In this document: one piece after another, positions 22,469-33,145 of the stretch
How positions within the stretch are numbered: position 1 is the first letter of the stretch
Layout: each line of letters begins with the position of its first letter
Source of the DNA: Erinaceus europaeus
Lineage: Eukaryota > Chordata > Mammalia > Eulipotyphla > Erinaceidae
Direction: 5' to 3'
Assembly (NCBI RefSeq): GCF_950295315.1
Contig: NC_080175.1
Coordinates: 70,369,357 to 70,433,356, forward strand
Length of the DNA: 64,000 bases
Position numbers and translations under genes: made by a program
The notes under the pieces: model-generated
What the model saw: the letters and a program-made list of their open reading frames with translations, nothing else
Told to the model about the DNA's origin: nothing
Databases searched by the model: none

Positions 22469-22712
22469 CCTCCCCCCAAAATTATACTTTCTTTCCAAAT
22501 TTGCCTTTCCTAGTATCCCATTTGTGAATAAACTGGTGTTACTGTCTACAAAAACACCTCAACTGGGGTCCAGATGGTGGTGCACCTGGTTGAGGATACA
22601 CATTACAATGTTCAGGGATCTAGGTTCAAGCCCCTGGTCCCCACCTGCAGGGGGAAAGCTTCACAAGTGGTGAAGCAGGGTTGCAGGTGTCTCTTTGTCT
22701 CTCTTCCTTTCT

Positions 22713-23127
22713 TGTTGTTAAAATTCTCGGCGGCTCTTGCTGGGCGGGCTAGCTTCACGGGCGGGTAACAGTGACGCGGAGACAACGGCTGGGCAGGGAA
22801 GCTGTATTTCTTTATTCAGGAACAATGATTCATAAACTAAGACAAACTAATCACCAAACAGAACTCTGCTGTCTCTTTGTGGCGGCGCAAGCACTCTCTC
22901 TTACTCTGGAACTCAGGAACCCTTCTCGCAAGCACTCTCTCTAACTCTGGAACTCAGGAACTCTCGAACTCTGCAACTCTTCAACTCTGGAACTCTGACA
23001 CTCTCCCACTTTGGAACCCTCTCTCGGGGTTCCTAGGGGCGGGGCCAAGCGGGCCCGCGAAAACTAACTGGACTGATCCAATTCTCTTGGCGGGGGAAAA
23101 CTAGAACCCAATGTAAAGCATACAACA
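22713..23127 (-). repeat. LTR 1 (3' LTR of the minus element)
   Basis: It starts with the inverted tttaacaaca end and finishes with gcatacaaca, i.e. TG...CA on the minus strand. It is about 75 bp longer than the other LTRs because of extra aactctggaactcagg-like units at about 22885-23010. A CCCCGCCCC-type GC box, an AATAAA signal and R/U5 type a (gttgtctc then gcgtc; gtcttag) are visible on the minus strand. Confidence 0.9.
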
Positions 23128-23149
23128 ATTCCCCCTTTTCTTTTAACTA
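23128..23149 (-). promoter_or_regulatory. Polypurine tract, minus element
   Basis: On the minus strand it reads aaaagaaaaggggg followed by AAT and then the LTR start. This is the site expected to prime plus-strand DNA synthesis. Confidence 0.8.
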
Positions 23150-24051
23150 AATGGCTACAGTATCAAGGGTGTGGGGTGGACAGAAACCTATATCGTACAG
23201 GCATTTTTATAAAAAGAAACTAGCACAAACATGGAGAAACATGCAAGCAAGTAACAAGAACCAGTGTGCTTCTAAGGGAAGGCCTGAGGGGGCCATATCT
23301 GCCTCTGTGGGCAAAACTTTATCAGCTTAAAAAAAACATTTCTTGTCTCTGGGGGGCTACTTGCCTCGACGGGCATTTGCATGGGGGCGGGGAACGGCTT
23401 AGAGTCCCAAAGGCAGCTGGCTGCAATTTACTTACTATGAAACAAAACTTGTTATTAGCATATTTCTAATAGAGAAGGAATTTGAGACTTTTACATAGCA
23501 ACAACATCTTTTTAACCTTTTGTTACACCCATTCAAGATGGAGTCAGGAAAGGAAACCTCAGGCATAAGAATAATTAGCATAGCCATTGTGCGATCTACT
23601 ATTTCTAATAGAGAAGGTAATGGAGAGTTTTACATATCAACAAGTCTATTTAAGCTTTTGTTTAGACCAACTTAGTTAAAATATATTGATAACTAATTTT
23701 TATCTCCGATTTAAATGTAAGTTAATTTTATCTTTATGAGAATTACGTTGAAAACCCTTTTCATTTAACTTTGACTAGTAAGAATTTAGCCTTAAAGTTA
23801 CTGTTTACCAAACTTTAAACATACACATAAACATGGTCATTAATACACTAGGAGAGAAACCTTTGTTACGAAGACATCTCATTTTAAACACGAATTTAAA
23901 TCTGTACTGTCTTAGTTGTTGGGGGGGGTTCACCATCCGGAGGTGGCTTCCTGCGCAGCTTCACTTTTAGGAATTGCAGGTTGCGATCTTTGCACGAATC
24001 TCTGCGTACTCCAGCTTGTCGGCCTTCAGACCGGACCGGCAGCTGGAGATC

Positions 24052-24402
24052 TCATGTGCCCAGTTTCGGCAGGGAGCCTGGGGGTCCGGGAGGTCCGGAA
24101 TCGTTCCAGAATTCATAGCAAGAGGGCAGGCAGGCCAGTTTTGTAGAAGGCGTGGGCCTAGGTGCCCAGGGGTGGCGGCCATGATAGGCCGCCGCGGCCC
24201 TGCTCCATGGCCCTGCCATGTCTGCTGCCCTGCTTGCAGTGGCCGAGCAGCATGGAGGGATCACGCGTCCAGTGCCCTGCTCCACGTGGTGGAGAGCCGG
24301 CTCCTGTGGGCTGGCCTGCGTGCTGGCATTGGGCTCCTGCATGGTGGCATCGGGCTCTTGCGTGTTGGCATCGGGCTCCTGCATGGTGTGGGTACGGAAC
24401 AC
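24052..24402 (-). pseudogene. ERV internal reading frame of unknown function
   Basis: 116 codons from an ATG shortly after the primer-binding site. The N-terminal part has a few Gln-Glu-Pro-Asp-Ala-x-x repeats; the rest is Pro/Ala/Arg-rich and ends in a segment with GPPGPPG. The C-terminal 70 residues match the 25627-25839 frame of the plus element at most positions, so the frame was present in the common ancestor. I recognise no gag, zinc-knuckle, protease or envelope motif. It may be unexpressed sequence whose frame is open by composition. Confidence 0.35.
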
Positions 24403-24413
24403 GATGGGCGCCA
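24396..24413 (-). promoter_or_regulatory. Primer-binding site, minus element
   Basis: Two bases inside the LTR end, the minus strand reads tggcgcccatcgtg. The first eight bases match lysine-tRNA-primed retroviruses; the remainder is diverged. Confidence 0.65.
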
Positions 24414-24415
24414 GA

Positions 24416-24725
24416 TGTTGTTAAAATTCGGTGGCTCTAGCTGTGCGGGCTAGCTTCACGGGTGGGTAACAGAGACGACCAGAGACATACGGTTGGGCAG
24501 GGAAGCTGTATTTCTTTATTCAGGAACAATGATTCATAAACTAAACCAAACTAATAACCAAACAGAACTCTGCTGTCTCTTTGCGGCGGTGCAAGCACTT
24601 TCGAACTCTGCCACTCTCCCACTTTGGAACCCTCTCTCGGGGTTCCTAGGGGCGGGGCCAAGCGGGCCCGCGAAAACTAACTGGACTGATCCAATTCTCT
24701 TGGCGGGGGAGAACTAGATCCCAAT
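24416..24725 (-). repeat. LTR 2 (5' LTR of the minus element, clipped at U3)
   Basis: On the minus strand it ends in aattttaacaaca at 24416 and carries R/U5 type b (gtatgtctc then ggtcgtc; ggtttag). At the other side it stops at cccaat (24720-24725). The last 15 bases seen in LTR 1, gtaaagcatacaaca, are missing where it meets LTR 3. Confidence 0.9.
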
Positions 24726-25065
24726 TGTTGTATGCTTTACATTGGGTTCTAGTTCTCCCCCACCAAGAGAATTGGATCAGCCCAGTTAGTTTTCGCGGGC
24801 CCGCTTGGCTCCGCCCCTAGGAACCCCAAGAGAGGGTTCCAAAGTGGGAGAGTGGCAGAGTTGGAGAGTTCCAGAGTGAGAGAGAGTGCTTGTGCCGCCG
24901 CAAAGCGACAGCAGAGTTCTGTTTGGTGATTAGTTTGTCTTAGTTTATGAATTGTTGTTCCTGAATAAAGAAATACAGCTTCCCTGCCCAGCCGTTGTCT
25001 CTGCGTCTCTGTTACCCACCCGTGAAGCTAGCCCGGCCAGCTGGAGCCTACGAATTTTAACAACA
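24726..25065 (+). repeat. LTR 3 (5' LTR of the plus element)
   Basis: It starts tgttgtatgc and ends ttttaacaaca. It contains a GC-rich U3 with ccgcccctagg, an AATAAA signal at 24964-24969 and R/U5 type a (gtcttag; gttgtctctgcgtc). These diagnostic bases match LTR 1, not the plus element's own 3' LTR. Confidence 0.92.
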
Positions 25066-25067
25066 AA

Positions 25068-25085
25068 TGGCGCCCACATGGACCT
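25068..25085 (+). promoter_or_regulatory. Primer-binding site, plus element
   Basis: tggcgcccacatggacc begins two bases after the LTR ends. The leading tggcgccc is the lysine-type signature; agreement beyond that is poor. Confidence 0.65.
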
Positions 25086-25135
25086 GACCTGCACATCTCT
25101 CTGATAAGTAAAGACAATTTGGCTACCTATGCACT

Positions 25136-25630
25136 ATGGCCTTCTCTTCTGCTTGTGAAGAGATCTCCAAAGGCCTCTGCTCTTTCTTCACGAGATTGTT
25201 TTGCTGTTTCTGGAACATTTATCTCTGGACCACTCTGTGGTTTCCACTCTCTGGGGCGAACTCAGAACAGCCAGTGGGAATAGCCAGCGGGCGGGAGGCG
25301 AGGTGCGGAGCTGCTGTTTCCACCTGGTTAAACAGCCAGCCAGCCGGCTGCACCCAGACAACCCCGCCACCGTGCCCGCAGCCCCGCAGCCCGCAGGAGG
25401 CCGATGCCAGCACACAAGAGCCCCAAGAGCCCGACGCCAGCATGCAGGAGGCTGACACCAGCACACAGGAGCCCGATGCCAGCACGCAGGAGCCCGATGC
25501 CAACACGCTGGAGCCCGATGCCAACACGCTGGAGCCTGATGCCAACACGCAGGAGCCTGATGCCAGCACGCAGGCCAGCCCACAGGAGCCGGCTCTCCAC
25601 CGCGTGCACGTGGAGACACTGGATGTGTGA
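25136..25630 (+). pseudogene. ERV internal ORF with Asp-Ala-Ser-Thr-Gln-Glu-Pro repeats
   Basis: 164 codons starting at the first ATG about 50 bp after the primer-binding site. The N-terminal third is Cys/Phe/Trp-rich, with a short hydrophobic stretch around residues 14-35. Residues about 85-150 are a run of roughly nine degenerate heptads of the type DASTQEP, coded by a 21-bp repeat (gcccgatgccagcacgcagg type). The frame ends at 25630. The homologous sequence in the minus element continues in frame into a further 70 codons, and a 2-bp length difference near 25590-25615 breaks that continuity here. I do not recognise the product, and it is not an obvious gag. It may never be translated. Confidence 0.35.
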
Positions 25631-25839
25631 TCCCTCTATGCTGCTCGGCCACTGTGAGCAGGGCAGCAGACATGGCAGGGTCATGGGGCAGGGCCGCGGC
25701 AGCCTATCATGGTCGCCACCCCTGGGCACCTAGGCCCACGCCTTCTACAAAACTGGCCTGCCTGCCCTCTTGCTATGAATTCTGGAACGATCCCGGACCT
25801 CCCGGACCCCCGGGCTCCCTGCCGAAACTGGGCACATGA
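25627..25839 (+). pseudogene. Downstream ERV frame, out of frame with the repeat ORF
   Basis: 70 codons, Ala/Pro-rich, ending in the GPPGPPG segment. Most positions match the C-terminal part of the minus-element frame at 24052-24402. Conservation between the two arms may only reflect their shared nucleotide ancestry, since non-coding parts of the arms are equally similar. Confidence 0.3.
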
Positions 25840-26785
25840 GATCTCCAGCTGCTGGTCGAGTCTGAAGGCAGACAAGCTGGAGTACACAGAGATTTGTGCA
25901 GAGATCGCAACCTGCAATTCCTAGAAGTGAAGCTGCACGGAAAGCCACCTCCGGATGGTGAAACCCCCCTCCCCAACAACTAAGACAGTACAGATTTAAA
26001 TTCGTGTTTAAAATGACAGGTCTTCATAACAAAGGTTTCTCTCCTAGTGTATTAATGACCATGTTTATGTGTATGTTTAAAGTTTGGTAAACCGTAACTT
26101 TAAGGCTAAATTCTTACTAGTCAAAGTTAAATGAAAAAGGTTTTCAATGTAATTCTCATAAAGATAAAAATTAACTTACATTTAAAGCCTGAGGTAAAAA
26201 TTAGTTAACAATCAATATATTTTAAATAAGTTGGTCTAAACAAAAGGTTAAATAGACTGGTTGATATGTAAAACTCTCCATTACCTTCTCTATTAGAAAT
26301 GGTAGATCGCACAATGGCTATGCTAATTATTCTCATGCCTGAGGTTTCCTTTCCTGAGTACAACGTGACTCCATCTTGAATAGGTGTAACAAAAGGTTAA
26401 AAAGATGTTGTTGCTATGTAAAAGTCTCAAATTCCTTCTCTATTAAAACATTAGATTGTGCTGTGGATGTGCTAATAACAAGTTTTGTTTCATAGTAAGT
26501 AAATTGCAGCCAGCTGCCTTTGGGACTCTAGGCCATTCCCCACCCCCATGCAAATGTCCATCGAGTAAGTACGCCCCCCAGAGGCAAGATATATATTTTT
26601 TTAAGCTGATAAAGTTTTGCCCACAGAGGCAGATATGGCCCCCTCAGGCCTTCCCTTGGCAGCACACTGGTTCTTGTTACTTGCTTACATGTTTCTCCAT
26701 GTTTATGCCAGTTTCTTTTTTAAAAATGCCTGTATGATATATGTTTCTGTTCACCCCACACCCTTGATACTATAGTCATTTAGTT

Positions 26786-26808
26786 AAAAAAAAAAAAAAG
26801 GGGGGAAT
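26786..26808 (+). promoter_or_regulatory. Polypurine tract, plus element
   Basis: A run of A followed by GGGGGG and AAT directly precedes the 3' LTR start at 26809. Confidence 0.85.
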
Positions 26809-27146
26809 TGTTGTATGCTTTATTGGGTAGTTATCCCCCGCCGAGAGAATTAGATCAGTCCAGTTAGTTTTCGCGGGCCCGCTTGGCCCCGCCCCTAGGA
26901 ACCCTGAGAGAGGGTTCCCGAGTTGGAGAGTTGGAGGGTTCCAGAGTTACAGAGTAAGAGAGAGTGCTTGCGCTGCCGCAAAGAGACAGCAGAGTTCTGT
27001 TTGGTGATTAGTTTGATTTAGTTTATGAATCGTTGTTCCTGAATAAAGAAATACAGCTTCCCTGCCCAGCCGTATGTCTCTGGTCGTCTTTGTTACCCGC
27101 CCGTGAAGCTAGCCCCGCCGGCAAGAGCCGCCGAATTTTAACAACA
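26809..27146 (+). repeat. LTR 4 (3' LTR of the plus element)
   Basis: It starts tgttgtatgc and ends ttttaacaaca, with AATAAA at 27042-27047. Its R/U5 is type b (gatttag; gtatgtctctggtcgtc), matching LTR 2. Its U3 differs from LTR 3 at many positions, including a short deletion after tgttgtatgcttta, so the two LTRs of this element are not a recent identical pair. Confidence 0.92.
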
Positions 27147-27239
27147 CTTTCTATCTCTCCCTCCCCTCTCAATTTCTCTGTTTCCATCCTATAATAAATA
27201 AATATTTTTTAAAAAGAAAGATTCAAAAACACCCCAACC

Positions 27240-32974: not shown

Positions 32975-33145
32975 CTTTAAAAACACCGGTCCATCCCCAC
33001 CTGCAGGAGGAAAGCTTCACGAGTGGTGAAGCAGTGCTGCAGGTGTCTCTCTATCTCTCTTCCTCTCTATCCCACCCTTACCTCTCAATTTCTGGCTGTC
33101 TCTATTCAATAACTAAATAACTAAATAAATAAATAAAGATAATAA
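32975..33145 (+). mobile_element. 5'-truncated SINE
   Basis: ggtccatccccacctgcagg, gaaagcttcacgagtggtga, agcagtgctgcaggtgtctc, CTCTCT body and an AACTAAATAACTAAATAAAT tail. The tRNA-like head is absent. Confidence 0.85.

Follow-up and report, generated by a model that had tools for sequence, protein, structure and literature searches.

Head-to-head endogenous retrovirus composites with like outer ends in the genome of Erinaceus europaeus

Textbook integration joins a single cDNA to the target through its U3 end and its U5 end. The stretch of E. europaeus DNA analyzed here (64,000 nt; hereafter the window) contains two endogenous retrovirus (ERV) elements whose outward-facing termini had both been called U5 in a sequence-only reading, and this raises the question of how an insertion can come to carry the same retroviral end on both sides. 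We aligned the LTRs of the two elements, surveyed members of the same family in the same genome, and compared the target sites, central joins, and LTRs of the composites found.

Anatomy of the composite

A (−) element (22713–24725) and a (+) element (24726–27146) form a head-to-head pair with U3 facing U3. Alignment of all four LTRs confirmed that the outer termini are exact U5 ends, not U3 ends, on both sides. The sequence immediately following CTTTCT at 22707–22712, which lies within a SINE tail, is TGTTGTTAAAATTC, the U5 end on the reverse strand, while the right arm terminates in GAATTTTAACAACA at 27146 and is followed by CTTTCT at 27147–27152. The entire composite is bounded by this single 6-bp duplication, which had also been read correctly from the letters.

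In the left element, all of whose parts are on the − strand, the 3′ LTR (22713–23127, 415 nt) forms, with its U5 end, the left-hand outer terminus and is separated by AAT from a polypurine tract, AAAAGAAAAGGGGG (23131–23144). The internal region (23128–24415, 1288 nt) contains a primer-binding-site-like sequence, TGGCGCCC (24396–24413), which we take to be of the tRNA-Lys type, and is followed by the 5′ LTR (24416–24725, 310 nt), from which the first 15 nt of U3 are missing. The right element, on the + strand, consists of a 5′ LTR (24726–25065, 340 nt) with a complete U3 tip (TGTTGTATGC), an internal region (25066–26808, 1743 nt) with a primer-binding-site-like sequence from 25068 and a polypurine tract at 26786–26805, and a 3′ LTR (26809–27146, 338 nt) whose U5 end forms the right-hand outer terminus. 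Near 25427–25574 its internal region carries a 21-nt tandem repeat, and ca. 406 nt of its leader is absent from the left internal region. The top listed open frame in the left internal region, on either strand, has 159 aa, and the longest listed in the internal regions of the window has 164 aa. The internal regions of the two arms differ at 100 of 1287 positions.

The U3/U3 junction (24722–24746) reads CCCAAT followed by TGTTGTATGC. Its placement at 24725/24726 in the earlier reading held, but the implied integrity of both tips did not, as the left one is without its terminal 15 nt. The AAT at this junction may be a 3-nt microhomology with an unprocessed cDNA end.

Paired TG...CA LTRs, a primer-binding site, and a polypurine tract were thus found in both arms, apart from the missing U3 tip of the left 5′ LTR. 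The fixed duplication, in contrast, does not lie between the U3 and U5 of one element but joins the U5 ends of two. Since one linear cDNA cannot supply two U5 outer ends, two cDNAs are required.

Recurrence and target sites

We surveyed 36 other family members, which were the top LTR matches in the same genome ranked by similarity. Twenty-eight were ordinary insertions with U3 and U5 outer ends, and their 6-bp duplications, of which 23 are exact and five carry a minor caveat, define the norm of the family. Based on the LTR, polypurine-tract, primer-binding-site, and duplication marks, the family is probably class II (ERV2/betaretrovirus-like). Three of the 36 were U5/U5 head-to-head composites, each with one exact 6-bp duplication: GGGATG at L018, AGTGGC at L053, and AACTAT at L060. 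One member was irregular, and the remaining four were left unclassified. The share of U5/U5 composites (3/36) has a 95% interval of 1.8–22%, and this rate may be off because the sample was ranked by similarity. Pattern searches yielded one further U5/U5 composite (L045/L047, GATCCC) and one mirror case, flanked by the duplication ACAGAT, in which the two outer ends are U3. Three of the four U5/U5 composites outside the window were accordingly drawn from members picked irrespective of structure.

The search for more head-to-head pairs with one 6-bp duplication, which the sequence-only reading had suggested as a check, therefore gave a positive result. All five head-to-head pairs with readable outer ends, the window included, showed U5/U5 ends and an identical 6-mer, and the sole readable tail-to-tail pair showed U3/U3 ends and an identical 6-mer. 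Another four head-to-head places and C350, a second tail-to-tail place, lie outside these counts, as do the outer ends of C1:715932, C1:130667945, C4:134310012, and C88:24267300; L033, L052, L056, and L061 contributed one end each. A one-off event was ruled out by the composites at L018, L045/L047, L053, and L060 and by the mirror case. We also considered a composite replicating as a unit and rejected it, since the window-junction pattern had one match in the genome and the six readable centers were all different. These results support like-end insertion as a recurrent mode in this ERV family, extending what had been described as a single event.

Inverted repeats can be misassembled, and two separate insertions might have been falsely joined in the assembly. 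We regard this as the least probable of the explanations considered: the arms in the window diverge internally as given above, the flanking host repeat joins up across the site, and the head-to-head structure is found on separate large contigs, five in all (C92, C1, C94, C97, and C102).

Random 6-mer pairs drawn from the fetched DNA were identical in 75 of 200000 cases, while 6-mers from different C/T-rich SINE tails were identical in 747 of 98522 draws. Because such tails repeat 6-mers, the CTTTCT match by itself is only moderately strong. When one copy of CTTTCT was kept, the flanks in the window rejoined into one SINE, which aligned without a gap at the site with five of nine copies, namely the nearest (32994–33123) and four more; in the other four the length of the tract at the site was off by 1 to 5 nt. 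The register of the SINE supports the duplication, though the C/T tract is length-variable. Closure of the target in a host repeat was checked in three cases, the window, L053, and the U3/U3 mirror case. The latter two lie in related host repeats, and their restored sites aligned without gaps at both junctions, with gaps only further downstream; the alignment scored 132 with one copy of the 6-mer versus 122 and 126 with two.

These observations bear on a second explanation, in which two independent insertions used one 6-bp target and a later deletion took away the inner duplication together with a portion of one U3. Neighboring insertions are generally common, and the target in the window is a C/T tract with the repeating 6-mers and varying length just described. 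However, this course requires reuse of the exact 6 bp plus a fitting deletion, the coincidence would have to be repeated in every readable head-to-head and tail-to-tail pair, and in each of the three cases checked the host repeat is restored at the insertion site. Two independent insertions are therefore considered very improbable, if a little less so than misassembly.

Central joins and LTR relationships

No two of the six readable central joins are alike. The window has the 15-nt loss from one U3; in the others we found a 12-nt loss joined to a truncated partner, a 4-nt stretch (ATAC) common to both sides, a 39-nt filler similar to the start of the host SINE (L053), truncation on both sides, and a 15-nt primer-binding-site-like remnant. 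Judged from their letters, these centers look like products of end joining. At C4:134310012, AAT, which normally stands between the polypurine tract and the LTR, is retained on both U3 tips, and a filler similar to the U3 tip sits between them. Retention of AAT at this place, whose outer ends were unread, is as would be expected of unprocessed cDNA ends. The partners in L018 and in the C94 composite bear different U3 tips (TGTT/TGTC), and hence two source RNAs are indicated for each.

The four LTRs in the window do not pair in a simple way. Indels (alignment columns 344 and 353–354) group the left 3′ LTR with the right 5′ LTR and the left 5′ LTR with the right 3′ LTR, and distances in R-U5 lean slightly in the same direction (13/185 and 15/187, versus 16/184 and 18/185 within arms). 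The U5-tip sites instead pair the two 3′ LTRs. Substitutions alone rejected none of three trees, the exchange tree being lowest (p-AU 0.173). The ordinary provirus L034 has 13/185 differences between its own two R-U5 parts. The pairing in the window counts against the like-end route proposed below, to which later recombination or an unusual strand transfer would have to be added, unless it is noise of the kind seen in L034. These LTRs were treated as mosaic and kept out of dating. An inversion behind the exchanged partners was rejected, as the U5-tip sites pair the 3′ LTRs and the substitutions reject no tree. Intermolecular strand transfer as the rule for every composite was likewise rejected, since the C94 composite misfits at the U5 tip; L018 fits it in U5 only, its U3 matching its own 3′ LTR. 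Such transfer is retained as a lead.

The exchanged or mosaic LTR partners in the window leave room for some recombination between arms and would suit a third explanation, that an ordinary provirus was made head-to-head after integration by inversion or inverted duplication. But a second exact U5 end beside the duplication is unattainable by internal inversion, and the arms of L018 and of the C94 composite are different LTR variants and not copies of one element. Such a rearrangement is improbable to nearly the same degree as two independent insertions, and slightly more so.

Proposed route and known systems

Most probably, the feature in the window arose when two cDNAs were integrated in concert through like ends, whether their free ends were sealed before or after. 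Exact LTR termini, a fixed stagger, and, in the three cases checked for closure, no loss of target were found, and the origin of the two ends from different cDNA molecules follows from the U5/U5 argument and from the variant arms of L018 and C94. We propose that two different cDNAs, both from this non-autonomous ERV family, each offered a U5 end to integrase, which made both outer joins in one concerted reaction with the usual 6-bp duplication. These cDNAs would have been present together, perhaps within one particle, and host end joining would have sealed the two free U3 ends with the loss of 15 nt from one. The sequence-only reading had offered integration through the like U5 ends of two cDNAs, with ligation afterward or as a prefused dimer, and recurrence lends support to this proposal.

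The two versions differ only in the order of steps, so the probability given to a dimer made first is a share of that given to like-end integration, not an addition to it. Two cDNAs end-joined U3 to U3 and then integrated through the two U5 ends of the linear dimer would look no different at the outer ends and would bear the same traces of end joining, and the AAT that may remain at the window junction and at C4:134310012 suits the joining of unprocessed ends. On the other hand, the SINE-like filler of L053 is easier to understand as repair of a broken chromosome, and the U3/U3 mirror case would require fusion of U5 ends too. Sealing after integration is moderately favored, and a dimer made first is a lesser possibility that we still take seriously.

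More tentatively, at least a few per cent of this family's insertions may trace back to particles that reverse transcribed both packaged RNAs, one alongside the other. Pairing among the four ends would then take no account of the molecule, and like-end pairs (U5/U5 or U3/U3) would integrate in concert, the second partner often being an unfinished cDNA. Intermolecular second strand transfer has been proposed for HIV-1. If our suggestion is true, strand transfers between two cDNAs would also explain why the 5′ LTR of an arm differs from its 3′ LTR, and the palindromic insertions would document, as fossils, particles that had contained two cDNAs. The frequency with which a particle reverse transcribes both of its genomes, an old question, could now be tested by sequence alone.

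If a measurable share of germline insertions used like ends of two cDNAs, pairing of ends in vivo is sometimes intermolecular, and these insertions are natural products available for study. Their recurrence, as far as genomic sequence can tell, points to a repeated non-textbook route for retroviral DNA. Long inverted repeats are prone to instability and can yield hairpin RNA; like-end insertions leave such repeats and are therefore relevant to genome stability and silencing. The composites may be under-counted because repeat annotation would probably split each into two broken elements.

The composite resembles an ordinary non-autonomous class II ERV in its TG...CA LTRs, polypurine tract, TGGCGCCC primer-binding site, and 6-bp duplication, but differs in having U5/U5 rather than U3/U5 outer ends and two genomes per insertion. 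Tandem LTR-sharing proviruses, commonly attributed to LTR recombination, are similar in that one duplication encloses two elements, as in L032 of this genome, but their elements lie head to tail, share an LTR, and keep the normal U3/U5 termini. A 32-base LTR pattern had no match among IMG/VR viral contigs, a collection that may omit source-genome records, and no account of such a composite was found in the excerpts of open-licence PubMed Central papers. For a plant element, close opposite-orientation LTR pairs were sought and no read pairs of that kind were found, but one antisense nested insertion was reported (PMC11624286). In alternative transposition of DNA transposons, as excerpted for VANDAL21 (PMC12312487), a recombinase likewise uses the ends of different elements, but the enzyme and life cycle are other and the elements are already chromosomal, not two cDNAs. 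According to an excerpt on aberrant HIV-1 and avian retrovirus integrations (PMC5041404), one end is normal and the other aberrant, often truncated, and the aberrant end may have further viral DNA attached to it in either orientation; the host side mostly has large duplications, also deletions or inversions, whereas both host joins of the composite are exact and its duplication is the normal 6 bp. The composite also resembles concerted integration by integrase in vitro, in which, in the part of PMC11054761 available, oligonucleotides modeling a viral end are used and the ends of two DNA molecules enter one target. Unlike that reaction, the composite is germline-fixed, is built from long cDNAs of different origin, and has its other ends sealed together.

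Structure of the composite in the window

In the window composite, the left element lies on the minus strand (3′ LTR, 22713–23127; internal region, 23128–24415; 5′ LTR, 24416–24725) and the right element on the plus strand (5′ LTR, 24726–25065; internal region, 25066–26808; 3′ LTR, 26809–27146), with copies of CTTTCT outside both outer LTR ends (22707–22712 and 27147–27152). Alignment of the four LTRs placed U5 at both outer ends and U3 against U3 at the centre. The outer U5/U5 ends, the central U3/U3 meeting, and the single CTTTCT pair of the sequence-only reading thereby held, but the left U3 tip proved to be 15 nt short; the right one is intact. Since 100 of 1287 aligned internal-region positions differ between the arms, neither arm is an assembly duplicate of the other. 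Both elements look non-autonomous from their sequence, because the longest open frame listed for the internal regions has only 164 aa. The internal region also contains a 21-nt tandem repeat (25427–25574 and 24317–24388), unequal in copy number between the arms, one frame of which gives EPDASTQ-like heptapeptides. A variable-number repeat lies between U3 and R of the family LTRs (e.g., 22886–22996), whose length ranged from ~310 to 585 nt among the copies read.

The two LTRs of an ordinary provirus begin as copies of one sequence. The four LTRs of the window composite show unusual pairing. Judged by indels, LTRs of different arms belong together; sites at the U5 tip place the two outer LTRs together, and substitutions favour no grouping. 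The 5′ LTR of another head-to-head composite, L018, has a U5 tip like its partner's and a U3 like that of its own element. Gene conversion between the arms at a later stage could produce such pairing, as could strand transfers between two cDNAs; for HIV-1, the second strand transfer has been proposed to occur between molecules (PMC5651808). Differences in R-U5 within the ordinary provirus L034 (13/185; 7/183 in L025) equal those of the closest window pair. Therefore, the odd pairing in the window is treated with caution, and the insertion was left undated from its LTRs.

Like-end composites elsewhere in the genome

The assembly was searched with an LTR query, and the 40 main matches gave 37 elements including the window. 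They are the top-scoring set for this one query, with 40 of 4386 first-look candidates scored, and thus a non-random draw. The other 36 were inspected with ~9.8 kb (20 elements) or ~1.3 kb (16 elements, three of which were later extended). In 28 of the 36, the outer ends are U3 and U5, as is ordinary, and the flanking 6-mers match; the match is exact in 23 (L019, L020, L021, L023–L030, L032, L036, L050, L051, L055, L057, L058, L059, and L062–L065); slight caveats apply to L022, L031, and L037 (one mismatch each), L034 (U3 tip 3 bases short), and L035 (6-mer offset by one base). One provirus, L054 (with L069), is irregular: its 3′ LTR ends before the U5 end, and no target-site duplication was found. 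L033, L052, L056, and L061 (4/36) stay unclassified. L033, whose family LTR precedes an interior that is longer and largely unrelated, is possibly the autonomous helper of the family. L032 contains a tandem LTR-sharing element (L032:4237–7177) with CTTGGG on both sides despite a deletion that begins at the U3 tip and extends into the 3′ part of the internal region.

Three of the 36 elements (95% interval, 1.8 to 22%) were U5/U5 head-to-head composites with an exact common 6-mer: L018 (GGGATG), L053 (AGTGGC), and L060 (AACTAT). A head-to-head pattern matched nine places, three of which were two-LTR junctions (window, L018, and a composite at C94:44165721 with GATCCC at both outer sides); in five of the remaining six, a single LTR adjoined a chance match to the left half of the pattern, and the sixth was a short LTR fragment. 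A second head-to-head pattern matched L018 and C94 only. The further head-to-head pairs with one 6-bp duplication proposed as a check thus exist (L018, L053, L060, and C94). A symmetric U3-centre pattern matched six places and its U5-centre counterpart two (C8 and C350), but these patterns were built on different core sequences and their counts give no rate comparison. The six were the window, C94, and four new places: C1:715932 and C1:130667945, where one partner starts near the polypurine tract, C4:134310012, and C88:24267300, reported without sequence letters. Reversed controls of both head-to-head, the U3-centre, and the U5-centre patterns gave 0 matches in the genome.

The mirror arrangement, in which both outer ends are U3 and each is flanked by ACAGAT, was found at C8:34888800–34892230 (L066 and L068). 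At C350:87881–87977 (L067), two U5 ends meet tail to tail with a remnant of the primer-binding site; the left LTR has lost its U3 and lies beside a SINE. A common outer 6-mer was present in all five readable head-to-head pairs and in the one readable tail-to-tail pair. The L053 and C8 composites sit in copies of one host repeat, presumably LINE-like. Their restored sites align to each other without gaps at either junction, with two gaps further downstream, and the score of 132 fell to 122 or 126 when two 6-mer copies were kept. They are independent composites inserted a few bases apart in the repeat, which may reflect target preference.

Is CTTTCT a true duplication?

The window composite is flanked by a C/T-rich SINE tail. 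The CTTTCT match alone is weaker than it appears, because 6-mers from different C/T-rich SINE tails agreed in 747 of 98522 comparisons compared with 75 of 200000 between randomly chosen sites of the retrieved DNA. An ordinary solo LTR, L028, likewise has a CTTTCT duplication, a reminder of how common this 6-mer is. When the composite and one CTTTCT were removed, the flanks made a single SINE, gapless at the site against five of nine other SINE copies within the window, including the nearest (32994–33123); against the other four, the tract shows gaps of 1 to 5 nt there. This closure argues against two separate insertions with host DNA lost between them, though a change of a few bases would still be compatible. 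The recurrence of like-end composites carries more weight as evidence for duplication.

Central joins and comparison with known systems

A linear cDNA ends in U3 at one side and in U5 at the other; an insertion bounded by U5 on both sides, within a single fixed duplication, therefore needs two cDNAs. In L018 and C94, U3 tip variants differ between the arms, and hence two source RNAs were present. At the window centre, 15 nt were lost on one side and 0 nt on the other, and the AAT found there may represent microhomology to the nucleotides after the polypurine tract. One U3 of L018 is short by 12 nt, and its partner starts 48 nt before its LTR; C94 lost 4 nt and is joined at a common ATAC, with a partner starting 32 nt before its LTR. 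In L053, a complete U3 tip is followed by a 39-nt filler similar to the start of the host SINE and a partner truncated inside U3. The left partner of L060 is truncated in U3, and the right one starts ~220 nt before its LTR. The head-to-head junction at C4:134310012–134310120 (outer ends not read) has two intact U3 tips, each with AAT, around a short filler similar to the U3 tip. In C8, U5 is followed by 15 nt resembling the primer-binding site and then the partner's U5, which suggests a U5 end still bearing tRNA-copied bases.

Fillers of polymerase-theta type belong to the marks of end joining, and from established knowledge of both we infer that the central joins bear such marks. The U5 end of an unfinished cDNA is made first. 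Unfinished cDNAs would fit the start of several partners near the polypurine tract, but this is a lead only, as the patterns favoured short distances.

No description of such like-end insertions was found in the parts of the literature searched. Integrase, in vitro concerted joining of two end molecules, and end joining are known parts; integrase routinely acts on separate end molecules in vitro (PMC11054761). What appears to be new is that they come together in a recurring class of germline insertions; the novelty lies in normal joins to the host on both sides and in repeated germline fixation of the products. Infected cells have yielded aberrant viral ends joined, in either orientation, to other viral DNA (PMC5041404). 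Whereas those products pair an aberrant viral end with other viral DNA, both host joins are normal in the like-end composites described here.
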